Source of the DNA: Flavobacteriales bacterium
GTDB lineage: Bacteria; Bacteroidota; Bacteroidia; UBA10329
Assembly: GCA_021741155.1 (NCBI GenBank)
Contig: JAIOYP010000004.1
Span: forward strand, 1-64,000
Reading direction: 5' to 3'
DNA length: 64,000 nt
Below, in pieces: positions 25,971-40,549 of the stretch. The translations under genes were made by a program, and so were the position numbers. Below the pieces are notes generated by a model. The model had not been told where the DNA came from and made no database searches. It saw only the letters and a program-made list of their open reading frames with translations. Numbering within the stretch: position 1 is the first letter of the stretch; each line of letters starts with the position of its first letter.

Positions 25971-27008
25971 TTATTTCTTGTTCTTAAACAGATTAAATCC
26001 GCCAAACACCTTCAATTTGCGCGAAGGTAACAGCACCTCAATCAACAGCAAGAGCAATGCCACAGCAATGAAATACTGGAAACGGTCTTCATAACTCGTA
26101 AACATCTTGCTTTCGAATTCTTCGCGCTGCATTCCTTCCAGTTCATCCATCAGCACATCTAGGCCTGTTTTAGAATTATTGGCACGCACATATGTTCCTC
26201 CGCCAGATGCAGCCACTTGCTGCAACATGGTTTCGTTCAATTTGGTAACCACCGTGTTTCCTGAGCGGTCTTTACGGTAGCCAAGCATTTGTCCACGTAC
26301 ATAGGTTGGAATAGGCGCTCCATCTACCGAACCAATTCCGATAGTATGCACCTTAATACCCAACTCTGCTGCTGCGGCTGCTTGCTTCAATGCATCGTCT
26401 TCATGATTCTCACCATCCGTAATGACGATAATTGATTTGTTTGCTTTTGAGTTGGCGCTAAACGAACCCATTGCCAATTCGATGGCCTTTCCGATGGCTG
26501 TTCCTTGGGTTGGAACGATATCCGTATTAATGGAGCGAAGAAACAGCTTGGCAGCAGAATGATCTACCGTCATTGGTAGTTGGATGTAAGCTTCGCCAGC
26601 AAACACTACCACTCCAATCTTGTCATTCTTCAAACGGTCTACCAAGCGAGAAATAGCCTGCTTGGCACGTTCTAGTCGGTTTGGAGTTAAATCTTCAGCC
26701 AGCATACTGTTCGACACATCCAAACAAATCATGAGTTCAAAACCTTCACGCTTCACTTCTTCATACTTGGTTCCAATCTGCGGATTTGCAATTCCAACAA
26801 GGATGAATGCCAAAGCGAGAATGAATAAGAATCGTTTCCAGCGCGGTAATGCTTTGGAAAGCGTGGGCATTAGATTTTGAATAATCTCAGCATCGCCCAA
26901 CTGCTTCAGCACGTTCTTTCTCCAACGGGCATTCAACCAGAACACGAGTAGCAGCACTGGAATAACCAGCAGCGCGTAGAGCCATATTTCGTTTGCGAAT
27001 CGGAACAC
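25971..27008 (-). CDS. batB: BatB-like VWA protein
   Basis: 345 residues: two N-terminal membrane helices (YALLVIPVLLLVFWL; FLFILALAFILVGIA), a von Willebrand A domain with MIDAS motif DVSNS (about residue 98), a TPMT-like 'T' in GTAIG and ITDGENHEDD, and a C-terminal helix (FQYFIAVALLLLLIEVLL). Inner-membrane component with the VWA facing the periplasm. Followed after a short gap by batC. Confidence 0.92.
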   Translation of the reverse strand: MFRFANEIWLYALLVIPVLLLVFWLNARWRKNVLKQLGDAEIIQNLMPTLSKALPRWKRFLFILALAFILVGIANPQIGTKYEEVKREGFELMICLDVSNSMLAEDLTPNRLERAKQAISRLVDRLKNDKIGVVVFAGEAYIQLPMTVDHSAAKLFLRSINTDIVPTQGTAIGKAIELAMGSFSANSKANKSIIVITDGENHEDDALKQAAAAAELGIKVHTIGIGSVDGAPIPTYVRGQMLGYRKDRSGNTVVTKLNETMLQQVAASGGGTYVRANNSKTGLDVLMDELEGMQREEFESKMFTSYEDRFQYFIAVALLLLLIEVLLPSRKLKVFGGFNLFKNKK

Positions 27009-27106: not shown

Positions 27107-28105
27107 TTAAACAATTGATCTCAGGATGGTTTGTTTCAACAGTACCTCACAAGCTAAGAGCAACAAAGCAGCAATAGCAAACGGCAGAAATTCCTCTTTC
27201 CGATTACGATATTCAGTTACATCTATCTTAGAACGCTCCAACTCATCAATTTCCTTGTAGACTTCCTCCAAGCTGGCATTGTCGGTAGCGCGGAAATACT
27301 TTCCATCGGTCATGTTTGCAATGCTGGTGAGTAGCTCCTCATTAATCTTTACTTCTACATCTTGGTAAACGGTTCTTCCGAACGGATCGGTGAACGGCAT
27401 GGGTGCCAAACCTCTCGTTCCAACGCCAATCGTGTACACACGCACTCCAAATTCTTTGGCGATTTCGGCAGCGGTAACTGGCGCAATGGAGCCCGAATTG
27501 TTATCGCCATCCGTAAGAAGAATAACCACTTTGCTTAGGGCTTCGCTGTCTTTAAGTCGTTTCACTGAGGTTGCCAATCCCATTCCGATGGCGGTTCCAT
27601 CTTCAAGCATGCCGCTTTTTACATCAGCAAACAGATTGAGAATAACCGAGTGGTCGGTAGTAAGCGGGCACTGCGTGAAGCTTTCGCCAGCAAAAACCAC
27701 TAGCCCTAGCCTATCATTTGGGCGATTGCCGATAAAGGTCTTGGCTACCTTTTTGGCTGCTTCCAAACGGTTGGGTTTAAAATCTTCCGCTTGCATAGAG
27801 CCCGAAATGTCAATCGCCATCACGATATCGATTCCTTCGGTCGTTACATCTTGCCAACTGCTAGACGACTGAGGACGCGCTAGAACCACAATAAGCAGCG
27901 TTACAGCCAACATGCGCAGAATGAAGGGCAGATGGATGAGTTTTGACTTGATAGTGGCTTCAGCGCCCTTAGATGAAGCCACATTGGAATAACGAAACTC
28001 CACGCGGCTCTTACGTTGCAAGAAAACGTAGTACGCCACCATCGGAATGAGGATGAGCGCAAGCCACAGCAGCTCAGGATTCTTGAATGCGATATCAGCC
28101 ATCAT
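27107..28105 (-). CDS. batA: BatA-like VWA protein
   Basis: 332 residues: N-terminal helices (LLWLALILIPMVAYYVFL; FILRMLAVTLLIVVLA), VWA domain with MIDAS DISGS near residue 100 and LLTDGDNNSG, and a C-terminal helix (LPFAIAALLLLACEVLL). Two ATGs at the start (28105 or 28102); either is close to the upstream stop (5-8 bp). Paralogue of batB next to it; the pair is the usual core of the Bat operon. Confidence 0.92.
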   Translation of the reverse strand: MMADIAFKNPELLWLALILIPMVAYYVFLQRKSRVEFRYSNVASSKGAEATIKSKLIHLPFILRMLAVTLLIVVLARPQSSSSWQDVTTEGIDIVMAIDISGSMQAEDFKPNRLEAAKKVAKTFIGNRPNDRLGLVVFAGESFTQCPLTTDHSVILNLFADVKSGMLEDGTAIGMGLATSVKRLKDSEALSKVVILLTDGDNNSGSIAPVTAAEIAKEFGVRVYTIGVGTRGLAPMPFTDPFGRTVYQDVEVKINEELLTSIANMTDGKYFRATDNASLEEVYKEIDELERSKIDVTEYRNRKEEFLPFAIAALLLLACEVLLKQTILRSIV

Positions 28106-28110
28106 CCTTT

Positions 28111-29382
28111 CTAGTCCTCTACTTTCGGTTCGTCTAACGGCATAACCAGCGTGGCATTTACAAACTGCCGTGCAATATCAAAACACTGCTCGTTCTCGTT
28201 TGAGATAGGCGTGTATTTGGCAAACTTGGCAAGATCGGCCATTTGCAGCATCTGCTTCAGCGTTTGCGTTTTGGTGTCTTCCAATCCTTTTAGCTTGAGA
28301 GCCGAAACAGTTTCGTGCGTGGTCATTTCTAGCGCCAACACGTCATATCTGAACTCAATGTACTCTCTCACAATGTCCGATAATTCGATATAGAATTGCT
28401 TGGTTTGGTTGTTCTGCCACAGTTTTTTCAAGCGCAGTTCTTCCAATTTCTCCAAGGCAATTTCGTGTGCTGGGCGCTTTGGTTTTGGTCTCGCAATAGG
28501 AGCCTCTGGTACCTTGCGGTATTTTTTCCAAAGAAGGAATCCTCCAATGAGTAGGGCAATAATAATCAGTGCCAATACTCCCCATTTGATAAGCGATTGC
28601 CAGTTGAACGGAACATCATACGGTTCTTTAATGTCCTTGATGTCGGCTTCCATCTCTACAGGAATATCCGATACGAAGAGCAACAGCGGTTCGGTTGATA
28701 GCGATTGTGAGCTATCGCCATTGAAGATGAATGTGATTGGCGGCAGCACAATAAAACCCGTATCGAAACTGGTAAGCACCAATCGCTGATGAATGATGGT
28801 TTCTCCCGTTTCCTTCTTAATGGTATCTGGAATAGACGCTTGTACAATCTCCAATTGACCTGTGATGCTATCCTTAAAACTTGGCCATGCAACAGGAATC
28901 AGCTCATTAAACTCTACAGAAATATCGAGGTTTACTTGGTCGCCAATGAGTATTTGGGTGCTATCGAGCACGGCTTTTACGGTGGCGTTTTGGGCGAACG
29001 AAAAGGTGATTAGCAGATTAGCTAATGAGATAATTAGCAAATACTTAAACATTGAACCTGAAACTTTGAACTCGCTTCTCATTGGCAAATTAGCTAATGT
29101 GCTAATTAGCGAATGCTTGAGTATCGAAACCCTTCGACTACGCTCAGGGAGGCCGCCTTGGTTGAGCGAAGTCGAAACCTTGAACTCGCTTCTCATTTGC
29201 TCATTAGCTAATTTGCTAATTAACAAATGCTTGAGTATCGAAACCCTTCGACTACGCTCAGGGAGGCCGCCTTGGCTGAGCGAAGTCGAAACTTTGAATT
29301 CGCTTCTCATTTGCTCATTGGCTAATTTGCTAATTAGCAAATACTTGCACTTTGAACCTTGAACCTTGAACTCTCCCATCAT
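28111..29382 (-). CDS. DUF4381-like membrane protein with tandem repeat-derived N-terminus
   Basis: The conserved part starts near residue 131 with QNATVKAVLDSTQILIGDQV: a periplasmic beta domain, one transmembrane helix (IKWGVLALIIIALLIGGFLLW) and a cytoplasmic helical tail. The signal peptide is MFKYLLIISLANLLITFSFA at Met111 (29052). The ATG at 29382 overlaps the DUF58 stop (ATGA), so translation probably starts there, reading through two tandem 38-residue units (SEFKVSTSL(S/N)QGGLPERSRR...) coded by 114-bp DNA repeats. Met101/Met111 are the alternative starts and would restore a normal exported protein. Fills the position of this gene in Bat operons. Confidence 0.8.
   Translation of the reverse strand: MMGEFKVQGSKCKYLLISKLANEQMRSEFKVSTSLSQGGLPERSRRVSILKHLLISKLANEQMRSEFKVSTSLNQGGLPERSRRVSILKHSLISTLANLPMRSEFKVSGSMFKYLLIISLANLLITFSFAQNATVKAVLDSTQILIGDQVNLDISVEFNELIPVAWPSFKDSITGQLEIVQASIPDTIKKETGETIIHQRLVLTSFDTGFIVLPPITFIFNGDSSQSLSTEPLLLFVSDIPVEMEADIKDIKEPYDVPFNWQSLIKWGVLALIIIALLIGGFLLWKKYRKVPEAPIARPKPKRPAHEIALEKLEELRLKKLWQNNQTKQFYIELSDIVREYIEFRYDVLALEMTTHETVSALKLKGLEDTKTQTLKQMLQMADLAKFAKYTPISNENEQCFDIARQFVNATLVMPLDEPKVED
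29060..29342. repeat. Tandem 114-bp repeat with TTCGACT..CGCTCAG hairpins
   Basis: Two copies, GCTTGAGTATCG starting at 29115 and 29229, exactly 114 bp apart (38 codons). Each holds a hairpin (TTCGACTACGCTCAG facing CTGAGCGAAGTCGAA, about 15 bp with one mismatch) and an AT-rich GCTAATTTGCTAATTAG stretch; that stretch also occurs at 29008-29035 and 29321-29340, so the block has about four partial units. Confidence 0.88.
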
Positions 29383-30251
29383 CTCGCTCCTCTTCGTTTA
29401 AACAGGTTCATTAACGGTTTGATATACGAACCATCCGTTCTTACTTCGGCCATATCTACACCCGATTTTAGCAATAGGTCTTTCAACTCAGCTTCAAACC
29501 GTAGGCTATTGGCTTTTAGTTTGATGCGTGTTTGTTTGTTGGAAGTGTCAACCCACACCAATTCGCCTGTTTCGGCATCTGTAATTGGCAAAAGTCCCAC
29601 ATTCGGAATCTCTTGCTCCAATTGGTCATACACGCGAATGGCTACCAAATCGTGCTTCTTGTTTGCCAATTTGAGGGCATCGGAATAGCCTTTGTCCATA
29701 AAATCGGTAAGTAAAAAGGTGATGCTACGTTTCTTAACCACATTGGTGAGGTAGCGCAATGCTTCGCTTAAGTCGGTGCCTTTGTGCTCAGGAGTGAAGT
29801 CAATTAACTCACGAATGATGCGCAAAATGTGGCTCTTTCCCTTCTTGGGCGGAATGAATTTCTCTACCCTATCGCTGAAGAAGATGATGCCCACTTTGTC
29901 GTTATTCTGAATGGCAGAGAACGAAAGCACCGCACAAATCTCGGTCATTAGCTGACGCTTCATCATCACCTTAGAACCAAAATCGCCCGAACCACTTACG
30001 TCTACCACAAGCATAACGGTGAGTTCTCTTTCTTCTTCAAATACTTTAACGTAAGGGTCTCCTGCTCTGGCGGTTACGTTCCAGTCGATGGTACGCACAT
30101 CATCGCCCATTTGGTATTCCCTCACTTCAGAAAAAGCCATACCGCGCCCCTTAAAAGCAGAGTGATACTGACCAGAGAATATCTGATTGCTCAGACCTCT
30201 TGTCTTAATCTCTACTTTCCGTACGCGTTTTAAAAGCTCTGACGTTTCCAT
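29379..30251 (-). CDS. DUF58 protein of the Bat operon
   Basis: 290 residues from ATG 30251 (METSELLKRVRKVEIK). DUF58 core: YQMGDDVRTIDWNVTAR near residue 55 and a VWA-like start VVDVSGSGDFG near 85; FLLTDFMDKGYSD follows. The open frame to 30389 is purine-repeat DNA and is rejected. Cytoplasmic VWA-like protein that in MoxR systems is predicted to work with the AAA+ ATPase. ATGA overlap with the next gene. Confidence 0.92.
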   Translation of the reverse strand: METSELLKRVRKVEIKTRGLSNQIFSGQYHSAFKGRGMAFSEVREYQMGDDVRTIDWNVTARAGDPYVKVFEEERELTVMLVVDVSGSGDFGSKVMMKRQLMTEICAVLSFSAIQNNDKVGIIFFSDRVEKFIPPKKGKSHILRIIRELIDFTPEHKGTDLSEALRYLTNVVKKRSITFLLTDFMDKGYSDALKLANKKHDLVAIRVYDQLEQEIPNVGLLPITDAETGELVWVDTSNKQTRIKLKANSLRFEAELKDLLLKSGVDMAEVRTDGSYIKPLMNLFKRRGAR

Positions 30252-30260
30252 GTTATTTTC

Positions 30261-30375
30261 AAGGGACGAGGGAGAGGGACAAAGGACAAGAGTGTCTCCT
30301 CCTACAATCACCCTAGATGCCGTTAGTTTTTCTGTGTTAAAGACAAGAGTAAAGGACGAAAAACGAGAGGACGGA
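30261..30375. repeat. GGGACGAGGG purine tract, left side of the four-helix-bundle gene
   Basis: GGGACGAGGGAGAGGGAC and AAAGGACAAGAG runs at 30261-30291, and GAGTAAAGGACGAAAAACG at 30346-30366, purine on the plus strand. The mirrored pyrimidine tract on the other side of the gene is at 30791-30870. Confidence 0.8.
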
Positions 30376-30397
30376 ACCTCCAATGTCAATCTTCACC

Positions 30398-30766
30398 TCA
30401 CTTTTTGCTATTCTTCTCTTCTAATGTTTTAATCGTTTTACTCAACATGGCTATAATGCCATTCAACTTCTGTGTTCTGTCGCTTACTAGCTCTGCTGGT
30501 AGCAATTTAGCGGAGCGTTGATACCAACCTTTGGTTTCTCTGGCTGAGCCTCTTGAAATTCGCAGAAACTGCGGATATTCTTTTCCATGTCCTCTTCCAT
30601 ACCCTTCCTCAATATTTGCTGAAACAGAACCACAACTCCGAATCAACTGACGAGCCACTTCTTTTCCTCTGAAATCTTTGGCAAGAACATCACAATCATC
30701 CCAACATGCATCATATAGCTGCATCGATTGCTGGTAGAATATCAGATTATCAAGTGGGTCACTCAT
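30398..30766 (-). CDS. Four-helix-bundle protein (S23 / 23S-rRNA-intervening-sequence family)
   Basis: 122 residues from ATG 30766 (MSDPLDNLIFYQQSMQLYDACWDD). The family pattern is clear: QLYDACWDDCDVLAKDFRGKEV, SCGSVSANIEEGYGRG, KEYPQFLRISRGSARETKGW. Members form pentameric bundles and include Avd of diversity-generating retroelements and proteins coded inside 23S rRNA insertions; function is unclear. Here it sits between moxR and DUF58, which are normally adjacent, in the operon's orientation. No reverse transcriptase or variable repeat is near, so it is not a DGR. A TTG at 30811 would extend it into repeat DNA; I reject that. Confidence 0.88.
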   Translation of the reverse strand: MSDPLDNLIFYQQSMQLYDACWDDCDVLAKDFRGKEVARQLIRSCGSVSANIEEGYGRGHGKEYPQFLRISRGSARETKGWYQRSAKLLPAELVSDRTQKLNGIIAMLSKTIKTLEEKNSKK

Positions 30767-30790
30767 TTCAGTCAGTTTAGATTTCAAACT

Positions 30791-30870
30791 CTCGTCCCTC
30801 TCTCGTCCCAATATTCAAAGAATCCTTCCCCTCGTCCTTCGTCCCAATATCTCAAAGAATCCGTGCCCTC
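30791..30870. repeat. Mirrored pyrimidine tract with two copies of a 24-bp unit
   Basis: Two copies of a CTCGTCCCAATAT(T/C)TCAAAGAATCC-type unit at 30802-30825 and 30839-30862, inside CTCGTCCC-rich sequence. The same unit occurs in the opposite orientation at 32053-32075. Confidence 0.85.
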
Positions 30871-30882
30871 GCCCCTAACAGT

Positions 30883-31869
30883 CTAAGGAACTTCGACTGT
30901 GTTTAAGATATCTGCAATAATCTCCTCAGAAGTAATGTTTTCTGCTTCGGCTTCGTAGGTAAGTCCAATACGGTGACGCAACACATCGTTGCAAACCGCA
31001 CGCACATCCTCAGGAATAACGTAGCCTCTGCGCTTGATAAAGGCGTATGCCTTCGCTGCCTTGGCCAAGGCAATACTTGCACGTGGCGAACCTCCGAAGC
31101 TGATAAGGTCTTTGAGTTTGGCTAGACCGTTATCTTCTGGGTAACGACTGGCAAATACAATATCAACGATGTATTTCTCAATCTTCTCGTCCATATACAC
31201 TTGGCGCACCACATCGCGAGCTTTAATGATGTCTTCTGGCTTCAGAACGGCATTTGCCTTTGGGTATTCTCCTGCCAAGTTGTGGCGGATAATCTGTGCC
31301 TCATCAGCCTTATTTGGGTACGATATCACCACTTTAAGCATAAAACGGTCAACCTGTGCCTCTGGCAATGGGTAGGTTCCCTCCTGCTCAATTGGGTTCA
31401 TGGTAGCCATTACCAAAAACGGCTCTTCCAACTTATACGTGGTATCGCCAATGGTAACCTGCTTCTCTTGCATGGCCTCAAGCAATGCACTTTGCACCTT
31501 GGCAGGGGCACGGTTAATCTCATCTGCTAGAATGAAATTAGAGAAGATTGGTCCTTTACGGACGTCAAAACCACCTGTTTTCTGATTGTAAATCTGTGTA
31601 CCCACCACATCGGCTGGCAATAAATCTGGCGTAAACTGAATACGGCTAAAACCCGCATTGATGGTGGATGCCAATGTGTTGATGGCTAGCGTCTTTGCCA
31701 GTCCAGGTACACCTTCCAGGAGAACGTGTCCTTTTGATAACAGACCGATTAGTAGGCTTTCTACCATGTGTTTTTGTCCTACAATCACCTTGTCCATTTC
31801 CATGGTTAGGATATCGACAAAGGCACTCTCCTTCTCGATCAGCTCGTTGATCTGCTTGATGTCTGTCAT
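30883..31869 (-). CDS. moxR: MoxR-type AAA+ ATPase
   Basis: 328 residues from ATG 31869 (MTDIKQINELIEKES). Walker A GVPGLAKT near residue 58; Walker B region ILADEINRAPAKVQSALLEAMQE near 120; sensor ATMNPIEQEGTYPLPEAQVDRF. MoxR ATPases act as chaperones in activating VWA-domain proteins; here the partners are DUF58, BatA and BatB in the same run. First gene of the operon; the longer frame to 31920 crosses the promoter and is rejected. Confidence 0.95.
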   Translation of the reverse strand: MTDIKQINELIEKESAFVDILTMEMDKVIVGQKHMVESLLIGLLSKGHVLLEGVPGLAKTLAINTLASTINAGFSRIQFTPDLLPADVVGTQIYNQKTGGFDVRKGPIFSNFILADEINRAPAKVQSALLEAMQEKQVTIGDTTYKLEEPFLVMATMNPIEQEGTYPLPEAQVDRFMLKVVISYPNKADEAQIIRHNLAGEYPKANAVLKPEDIIKARDVVRQVYMDEKIEKYIVDIVFASRYPEDNGLAKLKDLISFGGSPRASIALAKAAKAYAFIKRRGYVIPEDVRAVCNDVLRHRIGLTYEAEAENITSEEIIADILNTVEVP

Positions 31870-31968: not shown

Positions 31969-32091
31969 TCCGCCTGTGGCGGGACGGGAGAAAGGGACGA
32001 GGGAAAAAGGAAAAACGAGAAAATGGAAAAAGGTAGTTGCAACGAGGGGACCGATTCTTTGAATATTAGGACGAGGAAAGAGACGGATTCC
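31969..32091. repeat. GGGACGAGGG purine tract with GATTCTTTGAATATT unit
   Basis: In the 427-bp gap between moxR and the next lipoprotein gene. Begins CCGCCTGTGGCGGGAC and continues as purine tract to about 32048; the unit GATTCTTTGAATATTAGGAC at 32053-32072 matches the two units at 30802-30862 in reverse. Probably another copy of the same element type, without a gene. Confidence 0.8.
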
Positions 32092-37957: not shown

Positions 37958-38085
37958 TTACCAGATATCGTCAAAGTCAACAACTACGCGGTCGGTTTTC
38001 GGGTGTGCCTGACAGGTAAGAACCAAGCCTGAGGCAACTTCCTTATCTGTAAGAGAGTAGTTAAGCGTCATCGATACTTCGCCTT
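37958..38085 (-). pseudogene. Duplicated 3' end of the PaaE-like reductase gene
   Basis: This segment is about 94% identical (8 mismatches in 128 bp) to the 3' end of the gene at 39275-40357, in the same orientation. It codes the last 42 residues of that protein (ending VVVDFDDIW) with only two changes near the start (Ser for Thr, Leu for Arg). An open frame continues to 38206 but that part is unrelated. The iron-sulfur cysteines of the ferredoxin domain are not included except the last. Confidence 0.8.
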
Positions 38086-38232
38086 GAGTGGTTTTAGTCT
38101 CATTTTGCTGATCACTCAGTTCCAGAATTATTTTTGGCCTACTGAAATGGAAATTAGAAAAACATCTACCTTTCACGCTGGCAACTGCTTGTGGAATGTT
38201 CTGCACACAAGTTGCTTTAACCCTCCTAACCT

Positions 38233-39274: not shown

Positions 39275-40357
39275 TTACCAAATATCGTCAAAGTCAACAA
39301 CTACGCGGTCGGTTTTCGGGTGTGCCTGACAGGTAAGAACCAAGCCTGAAGCCACTTCCTTGTCTGTAAGTGAGTAGTTACGAGTCATCGTTACTTCGCC
39401 TTCTTTTATGCGTGCCAAGCAGGTGCAGCACACTCCTCCTTTGCAAGAATAAGGAACATCCAATCCAGTACGGTCTGCTGCATCTAAGATGGTTTCATGA
39501 CCCGGATTCATCTCAAAAGCAAACTCATCACCGTCCATTACAACGGTAATATGGCTTCGCACAGATTCCTTCGTTTCTTCGCTAACAGGAGTTGAGGAAA
39601 ATCCTGCAGTTGGATTAGGAGACCCGAAGAGTTCGAAATGCAGCTTTTCTTCTGCAACGCCTTTTTCTTCCAATACTTTTTTTGCAGCGTGAATAATCTG
39701 CTCAGGCCCACACATGTAGAAAGCGTCAACCTCAGCTGGGTCAAAGAGAACCTCGCTAAACTTTCGAATCTTTTCCTCGTCAATCCGTCCTCTGAAAAAG
39801 TCGGAACCCATTTCCTCCTTACTCATCACGTAATGAATCTCCAATCTATCTGGAAAACGGTTTTTTAGCGCATTAATCTCATCCACATAAATAATGGTGG
39901 AAGCATAACGATTGCCGTAGAAACACGTGAAATGACTCTGAGGCTCGGTTTCTAATACGTGCTTCATCATGCTGATGATAGGCGTAACGCCACTTCCTGC
40001 ACAAAAACTCACATAATGCTTCTTGTTTGATGGGTCTGTGTGTATCACAAATCGACCACGAGGTGCAAGTGTATTGAGGGTGTCGCCAACCTTCAATTCC
40101 TGATTGGCATAGGTAGAAAAACGTCCGCCAGGAACTTCTTTTACCCCAACACGCAATTCTCCTTCTTGCGGAGACGAACTAATGGAATAGGATCGTTTCA
40201 ATTCCTCACCGTTCACCACATGCTTAAACATTACATACTGTCCAGGTATAAACTTGAATTCCTCGGCAAGATCTGCTGGTATTCTCAGTTTGATGGAAAC
40301 CGCCTCAACGGTTTCTCGCTTTATATCAACAACCTCAAGCGGGTGAAAAGTAGCCAT
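39275..40357 (-). CDS. Ferredoxin reductase with C-terminal 2Fe-2S domain (PaaE-like)
   Basis: 360 residues. FAD domain with RSYSISSSP near residue 56; NAD(P) domain with GSGVTPIISMMKHVL near 120 and YMCGPEQII near 222; plant-type 2Fe-2S domain with CKGGVCCTC near 310 and a late Cys (LTCQAHP). In phenylacetate degradation PaaE carries electrons to the PaaA epoxidase. No paaABCD genes are near, so another oxygenase or desaturase may be the partner. Intact copy of the gene whose end is duplicated at 37958. Confidence 0.9.
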   Translation of the reverse strand: MATFHPLEVVDIKRETVEAVSIKLRIPADLAEEFKFIPGQYVMFKHVVNGEELKRSYSISSSPQEGELRVGVKEVPGGRFSTYANQELKVGDTLNTLAPRGRFVIHTDPSNKKHYVSFCAGSGVTPIISMMKHVLETEPQSHFTCFYGNRYASTIIYVDEINALKNRFPDRLEIHYVMSKEEMGSDFFRGRIDEEKIRKFSEVLFDPAEVDAFYMCGPEQIIHAAKKVLEEKGVAEEKLHFELFGSPNPTAGFSSTPVSEETKESVRSHITVVMDGDEFAFEMNPGHETILDAADRTGLDVPYSCKGGVCCTCLARIKEGEVTMTRNYSLTDKEVASGLVLTCQAHPKTDRVVVDFDDIW

Positions 40358-40492
40358 GCAACGCCTTTTTTAGTTCTGACAAATCTATCATATCTCTCAT
40401 CAAGGGCAAATGAGTATCGGCATTTCTCTTTCGTACCTGAAATACACGAGTGCGATAAAATAGCATGCTACGCGTTCATATTTCCTTGTTTT

Positions 40493-40549
40493 GGGACGAG
40501 AGACGAGAGACGAGGGGGAACCGTCCTTTGTCCCTTGTCCTTTGTCCCA
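40493..40549. repeat. GGGACGAGAGACGAG tract facing GTCCTTTGTCCC
   Basis: Purine run 40493-40518 then pyrimidine run 40522-40549 (TCCTTTGTCCCTTGTCC type), an imperfect inverted arrangement of the same units found around the four-helix-bundle gene. Sits in the 228-bp gap between the reductase and acyl-CoA dehydrogenase genes. Confidence 0.8.

Follow-up and report, generated by a model that had tools for sequence, protein, structure and literature searches.

S23 gene within a Bat-type operon

The window, which is the whole stretch of 64,000 nucleotides of Flavobacteriales contig JAIOYP010000004.1 that was analysed, contained a Bat-type operon on its minus strand, and this operon carried a gene of the S23/IVP family. 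The genes moxR (ending at 30883) and DUF58 (starting at 30251) were separated by 631 bases that held the S23 gene as their single gene, and all three were located on the minus strand. The features of the locus were as follows.

40492..40549, no strand assigned: compact, gene-free pair of opposed arms, resembling an empty element
31978..32086, plus strand: gene-free, one-sided tract located upstream of moxR, with a 44-column match to the upstream arm
30883..31869, minus strand: moxR, upstream host gene (Pfam AAA_3/AAA_lid_2)
30790..30877, minus strand: upstream arm (operon sense), a degenerate array of GGGACGA in which a GGATTCTTTGA..ATATTGGGACGA unit recurs
30398..30766, minus strand: S23/IVP four-helix-bundle gene, 122 amino acids (PF05635 / TIGR02436, AlphaFold2, Foldseek)
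30340..30376, plus strand: downstream arm, inner degenerate part (AAAGGACGA / ACGAGAGGACGG), limits set by eye
30262..30293, plus strand: downstream arm, outer part, with GGGACGA words on the opposite strand, adjoining the DUF58 start
29379..30251, minus strand: DUF58 gene, downstream host gene (Pfam DUF58)
28111-29382, minus strand: further gene of the Bat-type operon (ORF list/Pfam)
27107-28105, minus strand: BatA-type VWA gene of the Bat-type operon (ORF list/Pfam)
25971-27008, minus strand: second VWA gene of the Bat-type operon (ORF list/Pfam)

The S23 protein of the window matched PF05635 with 64.6 bits (cut-off 33.8) and TIGR02436 with 76.8 (cut-off 24). No Pfam family other than PF05635 was detected in it at E 0.001, and no RAYT tyrosine (HUH) transposase domain was found. 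AlphaFold2 predicted a confident four-helix bundle (mean pLDDT 96.4), for which 2rld and 2gsc were the top Foldseek matches (E 3e-4); the TM score by query length was 0.80-0.86 for eight of the nine listed chains and 0.68 for the remaining one. The solved relative from Xanthomonas is a homopentamer. Fifteen columns were invariant over 35 S23 relatives, including Q38, R41, N49, E51, E52, R56, E75, and R95, and, judged from the alignment, this seems more conservation than a purely structural scaffold would require. The accessory protein of diversity-generating retroelements (DGR), Avd (4dwl), appears to share the modelled fold, with a TM score of 0.74-0.77 by query length, but its identity to S23 is only 7-8% and the Foldseek E value of 0.2-0.4 is not significant; PF05635 is described as Avd-like in a passage of PMC10053308. 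A role in defence and carriage by phages were both considered for S23 and rejected, as three S23 proteins had no PADLOC match at E 0.1 and the window protein matched no phage record at E 1e-5.

The original prediction had placed a four-helix-bundle gene between mirrored purine tracts in this operon, and this description was borne out by the PF05635 match and by the distribution of the words: counted in operon sense, GGGACGA-type words and their complements numbered 5 and 0 on the upstream side of the S23 gene, and 0 and 3 on its downstream side. The word GGGACGAG occurred five times in the window compared with 0.94 expected, and five or more copies were seen in none of 100 shuffles. Taken by itself, the mirror match at this locus was modest (score 25, p about 0.01, 2000 shuffles), and the case for mirrored arms is strong because of the other loci described below. 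Two tracts without a gene had also been taken for empty copies. The pair at 40492-40549 does have the compact opposed arms of such a copy, with a weak gapless match of its own (score 15), whereas the tract at 31978-32086 is one-sided and does not have that form. At gathering thresholds, Rfam identified only a tRNA and a Flavo-1 RNA (RF01705, 8235-8308, 50.8 bits) in the whole window, and the S23 gene lies outside any 23S rRNA gene.

Two further repeat features of the window were recognized by eye. AATTAGC-type tracts, CCCTTCGACTACGCTCAGG palindrome halves, and TTTGAACCT repeats form a composite at 29040-29390, through which the listed gene 28111-29382 reads at its 5' end; this part is probably repeat DNA that precedes the true start. 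An open reading frame at 37958-38206 shares its terminal residues with the reductase-like gene at 39275-40357, as in a partial duplication.

Mirrored arrays at S23 genes in general

The source genome contained four PF05635 genes, one of which has an in-frame stop. The remaining three S23 genes were located between cysN and cysD, between hisF and hisA, and beside FAD-binding-subunit-like and hemerythrin-like genes, these neighbours being named from a reading of the open reading frames and not from a family search. All three were flanked by mirrored words that exceeded 100 shuffles, namely GATTGACGATTTTAGA at the his locus, GAAAGCTGA at the cys locus, and GGGTTACGGGTTGCGAG at the fourth gene. 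Alignment of such genes had been expected to reveal a common border. Mirrored tracts were indeed present at every one of them, but the word differed and no border sequence was common to them; the borders are arrays of a seven-letter word that is particular to each S23 clade, and not simple terminal repeats of one shared sequence. Because each clade has its own word, the pattern would escape anyone who scanned the genome for four-helix genes next to GGGACGAG.

PF05635 genes were found in 120 of the 149 genomes of the class that were searched, with up to 23 per genome. Mirroring was assessed by comparing the 250 bases on the left side of each S23 gene with the reverse complement of the 250 bases on its right side, against dinucleotide shuffles. 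Within the genus, 39 S23 matches were found and 30 loci were tested, 24 of which had an inverted flank match above all 100 shuffles. Relatives of the window protein were collected from 84,980 species, and among the best 80 of the 120 found, which are not a random sample of S23, 71 of the 78 testable loci exceeded all 50 shuffles; according to the record titles, they belong to Bacteroidota, Ignavibacteria, Chloroflexota, Planctomycetota, Poribacteria, and other lineages. Ten of 14 loci on cyanobacterial plasmids (two from one search and 12 hand-chosen from 44 records) exceeded all 100 shuffles.

The loci were pooled after three of 139 had been dropped for short flanks, which left 136; L045 was excluded as it is the same place as L131, and the loci contributed by the class-wide PF05635 search are the top-scoring ones and not a random sample. 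The S23 genes' own inverted flanks scored above the 99% shuffle level at 105 of the 136 loci and above the 99.9% level at 78, and no mirror match above the 99% level was present at 31. The same comparison without reversal passed these levels at only 17 and 10 loci, and windows shifted by 900 bases did so in 1 and 0 of 253 cases. When the left flank of one S23 locus was compared with the right flank of another, 124 (99%) and 50 (99.9%) of 3000 combinations passed; this control is not empty because different S23 loci can share a word, and the own mirror scores of 58 of the 136 loci exceeded its 99% level. A period of seven is evident in the arrays: the best lag was 7 in 63 of 90 arms and 8 in 21, and identity at lag 7 was 0.543 compared with 0.316 in shuffled arms. 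The arms also have a fixed polarity: of 101 upstream arms, 91 are richer in G than in C when read on the coding strand. The locus of the window is one case of a general pattern, which is far wider than had been supposed; in the main, the original prediction was correct.

On the cyanobacterial plasmids, some S23 genes were located inside CRISPR-Cas operons, as cas6-S23-cas4 in L309 and L314 and as cas10-S23-cmr3 in L312, and might be misread there as accessory genes of the Cas system. The mirrored arrays were strong in L309 and L314, and short and weak in L312.

The same mirrored-array design was observed at genes of a second family, GxxExxY/PDDEXK_3 (PF13366; L078-L100 and L273-L299; also the hisA-hisF junction L302), with other words (CACAGAG, CGCAAAG, ACGCGGAT, and ACGAATT). 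Among 48 of these loci, a count that includes L286 (at a contig edge, with wrong coordinates), 33 scored above 99.9% of shuffles, compared with 10 in the same-strand control and 0 of 93 in the shifted control. The neighbours were in the sense of the gene at 38 of 46 loci and against it at one.

Sites with and without the gene

The junction of moxR and DUF58 was recovered from 30 genomes or copies, and S23 was present in three of them: G000, the congener G004 (73-74% identical), and G013 from another family (62-63%). Within the genus, where the junction was recovered from eight genomes including the source genome itself, S23 was missing in six. These six junctions span 65-152 bases, and several contain other tracts or palindromes, as judged by eye (TCAGATT/TGAGACG, TAAGCGA, or palindromes in L049-L054). 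G006 and G007 had no S23 match at all, yet harbored other tracts at the moxR junction. The varied tracts of the congeners suggest that this spot attracts arrays repeatedly. A similar situation was found between hisA and hisF, which was recovered from five of nine genomes of the genus. Two of the five, G000 and G005, contained S23, and their hisA and hisF matches were 457 and 478 bases apart; in G007 and G008, which lack it, the match to hisA extends into the start of hisF. The two S23 proteins are 91% identical, and the upstream arm is much longer in G005 than in G000. In G002, a gap of 29 bases between hisA and hisF holds a word of the GxxExxY-type element.

These junctions agree with two expectations of the original prediction, that gene and tracts form one insertion and that close relatives would have an uninterrupted moxR-DUF58 junction. 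Relatives did not all carry a gene free of tracts at this place, nor were the other S23 genes of the genome devoid of bordering tracts.

S23 proteins of the window type were located between at least six gene pairs: moxR and DUF58, two VWA genes, thioredoxin and a protein without a Pfam match, acyl-CoA dehydrogenase and an HMGL-like lyase, an Exo_endo_phos gene (on the opposite strand) and glutaredoxin, and 3-hydroxyacyl-CoA dehydrogenase and thiolase. The moxR-DUF58 site recurred in three genomes of the junction survey and in six loci of the neighbour set; old vertical inheritance with many losses could be an alternative explanation of this recurrence. One cluster of gene pairs held S23 in both Chloroflexota and Bacteroidia (L153, L182, L184, and L204; L104, L118, and L120-L122), and Pfam, which was applied within this cluster to L153, identified its pair as 3-hydroxyacyl-CoA dehydrogenase and thiolase.

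Neighbours were defined as the longest open reading frames and not as annotated genes. On this basis, the 125 S23 loci with two predicted neighbours included 85 distinct neighbour pairs, a number that is inflated because some neighbours are spurious open reading frames within tracts; the 57 loci of one S23 group occupied 44 sites. S23 was in the sense of both neighbours at 107 of the 125 loci and against both at only two, the neighbours being mixed at the other 16. The supposition that the gene uses the promoter of its host operon fits this bias, and expression of S23 from the host operon may explain why mainly copies in sense orientation remain. No target-site duplication was identified at S23 elements.

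The gaps between S23 and its neighbours were short (medians 69 and 58 bp), and this compact placement, together with the recurrence of the moxR site, would also fit a resident regulator, in which the heptamer arrays are translational or transcriptional control sites of operons and S23 is a local or global regulator that does not move. A passage of PMC4679880 likewise proposes that TAACTGA arrays before start codons are sites of a post-transcriptional regulator. A resident gene is difficult to reconcile with so many neighbour pairs and with 44 sites within a single S23 group, or with genomes of the same genus that lack S23 at moxR-DUF58 and at hisA-hisF, and we regard this explanation as quite improbable.

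Array words and the S23 clade

The word of an array follows the clade of the S23 protein beside it. S23 proteins of the window type (about 58-74% identity) mostly had GGGACGA or a near form, whereas remoter members had GTGACGG, GTGGCGA, GCGAATG, GCAAATC, and others. For the word tests, eight loci with stops in the match were dropped from the pooled set (128 left), followed by 27 that scored below 27, and the 101 remaining loci do not include the window's own (score 25); phyla were assigned from record titles. Considering only non-homologous sites, mean word similarity was approximately 0.09 below 40% S23 identity and 0.33 above 60%. Over 4898 pairs of such sites, S23 identity and word similarity were correlated with a Mantel rho of 0.253 (null maximum 0.128, 300 permutations), and the correlation remained at 0.238 when GC content was removed (null maximum 0.099, 500 permutations). 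The 3105 cross-phylum pairs, with GC content likewise removed, gave 0.231 (null maximum 0.0997, 300 permutations).

A quick maximum-likelihood tree of the group of window-protein relatives, in which some homologous sites are still included, gave the same picture. Over the 63 loci that fell into word classes of three or more, the word class changed 12 times, compared with at least 25 times in shuffles within phyla and at least 29 times in free shuffles. At two other clustering cut-offs (57 and 63 loci), the changes numbered 13 and 7 compared with 26 and 10 in within-phyla shuffles. Neutral flanks should have lost recognizable words at 60% protein identity, and the words have therefore probably been kept or renewed.

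S23 genes within one genome had unlike words, with a mean similarity of 0.068 over 14 pairs, and the idea that S23 elements share fixed borders was rejected on this ground.

Dispersed arrays and their cognate S23

Arrays were also found away from S23 genes, and mainly in genomes that encode the corresponding protein. Among 59 relatives, GGGACGAGGGA was present in 17 copies in G000, 45 in G004, 19 in G013, and 15 in G043, and in five or fewer in each of the other 55. Of these 59 genomes, G000, G004, and G013, and no others, had an S23 match of at least 63% identity; the next-best window-type match by score had 58.7 bits and 38% identity, and higher identities occurred only in short partial matches (at most 55% over approximately 42 residues). 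This co-occurrence was significant in a rank test (p 5.5e-5), with a median of 0 copies in the genomes without window-type S23. The seven other genomes of the genus, which lack this type of S23, contained 0, 0, 0, 0, 0, 1, and 3 copies. G043 is an exception, as its best S23 match has 40 bits and 39% identity; its copies are either a relic, the mark of a lost gene, or the arrays of a different S23 with the same word.

A second word behaved similarly. The TAAGNNN arrays, searched as TAAGNNNTAAGNNNTAAG, numbered 9 in G008, 20 in G004, 13 in G005, and 17 in G051, the genomes with an S23 of the L030 type at 70% identity or more, and had a median of 1 in the remaining 55 genomes (p 6e-4). Exceptions without a matching S23 were G019 (27), G044 (18), and G033 (11). 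The control pattern, TAAGNNN read backwards, is no clean baseline because it is itself a possible word, reaching 94 in one genome. The dispersed stretches in G004, G013, and G043 were one-sided in 36 of 40 cases by script count; their arrays are short, and some merge into other words.

Arrays can lengthen by replication slippage, and the unequal upstream arms of the two hisA-hisF elements, whose S23 proteins are nearly the same, indicate that arm length does shift fast. The arrays might accordingly be supposed to grow in permissive gaps with S23 carried along or tolerated and no functional link between the two. Slippage alone accounts neither for inverted arms with fixed polarity, nor for words that follow the clade across phyla, nor for the co-occurrence of arrays and S23 genes in genomes; we consider it very improbable indeed, and the outcome of the clade and co-occurrence tests led us to drop pure slippage.

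A proposed matched pair of word and protein

We propose, with a probability of roughly 0.6, that the S23 locus is a small dispersed-repeat element in which an S23 gene is bracketed by inverted arrays of a degenerate word of seven letters, and in which word and protein are matched, moving and evolving as a pair. Its observed part comprises the architecture, the period of seven, the polarity, the placement in sense, the sites with and without the gene, the tracking of word and clade, and the co-occurrence of arrays with S23. These observations suggest a spreading word-array element with S23 as its cognate protein, REPIN/RAYT-like in logic and related to the intervening sequences (IVS) of 23S rRNA.

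In REPIN/RAYT systems, a protein gene is flanked by inverted repeats, the repeats are dispersed in the genome, and the repeat type matches the protein clade. The S23 elements are similar in that their word follows the protein clade and arrays are dispersed where S23 is present, apart from the four exceptional genomes G043, G019, G044, and G033. They differ in containing neither RAYT nor an HUH nuclease, and their repeat unit is a degenerate 7-nt word, arranged in arrays, where REPINs have a palindrome of 20-40 nt. Following the logic of RAYT and REPIN, S23 would recognize its own word in DNA or in the transcript, and the spread or persistence of the arrays would depend on it; cutting and joining would be supplied by host functions or by an S23 activity so far unrecognized.

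The IVS of 23S rRNA likewise combine a PF05635 protein with inverted ends, and in Coxiella, as a passage of PMC4990558 describes, two or three tandem heptamers (depending on the strain) are located just before the S23 ORF, and the element is excised by RNase III. The combination of heptamers before the ORF and RNase III cutting makes an RNA stem a serious rival for the elements described here. In that case the elements would be an mRNA version of the IVS, whose arms form a stem under selection and from which RNase III cuts out S23 while sparing the host genes. The common protein family and the bias toward sense placement fit such a stem, as does the predicted RNA fold, in which the arms pair over most of their length in 18 hand-picked elements including that of the window. 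Selection for RNA pairing should leave mismatches of the wobble type, but over 107 loci the mismatches between arms were wobble-compatible in 100 cases and of the A-C type in 132, which is the wrong direction (p 0.04); counted by locus the numbers were 26 and 42 (p 0.07). One-sided arrays are, moreover, common. A selected stem is thus unlikely, and the wobble test led us to set it aside as the main reading. As the mismatches do not lean to G-U, recognition of the word by a protein is favoured over pairing of the arms. The S23 elements further differ from the IVS in their setting: they occur in many phyla at junctions of protein-coding genes within operons, and a genome often has several. Nor does the complementarity of their arms give the impression of being under selection for an RNA stem.

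The arrays closely resemble the bacterial heptamer repeats, including the cyanobacterial STRR, which are also degenerate seven-letter arrays in mostly intergenic positions. Examples in passages of the cited papers are GGGAATC in Xanthomonas and GGGGAYT in Nostoc (PMC4692102), TAACTGA in Beggiatoaceae and others (PMC4679880), and GGGACCG in Geobacter (PMC2700814). For Xanthomonas, a passage of PMC4692102 reports 70 and 75 inverted array pairs in two genomes, the prominent ones at different genes. The difference is that no S23 partner has been named for these repeats: terms for S23 or a four-helix protein occur 0 times in the main texts of PMC4692102, PMC4679880, and PMC2700814, and among the titles and abstract beginnings listed in searches of open-licence papers, none linked S23 to heptamer arrays. 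The one text found to combine the two is PMC4990558, which deals with the IVS of Coxiella; PMC5041132 bears on neither subject. An S23 protein, XCC0516 (PDB 2gsc), is encoded by Xanthomonas campestris, and its predicted word is therefore GGGAATC.

A bolder form of the proposal holds that S23 proteins are the long-sought agents of the bacterial heptamer repeats, each clade reading and propagating its own word. They would be ring-shaped four-helix proteins without a recognized nuclease and would represent a class of mobile DNA in its own right, with the rRNA IVS as one branch; a second and unrelated family, GxxExxY (PDDEXK_3), would use the same mirrored design with other words. We advance this extension tentatively and put it at somewhat less than even odds.

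Implications

The association between S23 and the arrays joins two unexplained features of bacterial genomes: an S23/IVP protein whose structures have been solved and whose function is not known, and scattered seven-letter repeats, which are found in Bacteroidota, Cyanobacteria, Xanthomonas, and others and whose origin is left open in the passages of the cited papers considered here. The array beside each S23 gene predicts the binding site of its protein, and both S23 and the repeats are therefore testable. The results suggest that an S23 gene with its changing word constitutes a type of spreading element that has attracted little notice, and that might account for both of these old puzzles. 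The same relationship is a possible reason why intervening sequences of 23S rRNA carry an S23 ORF. If S23 does act on the words, it would imply a protein-word code that extends over many phyla, and a class of mobile elements without a known transposase.
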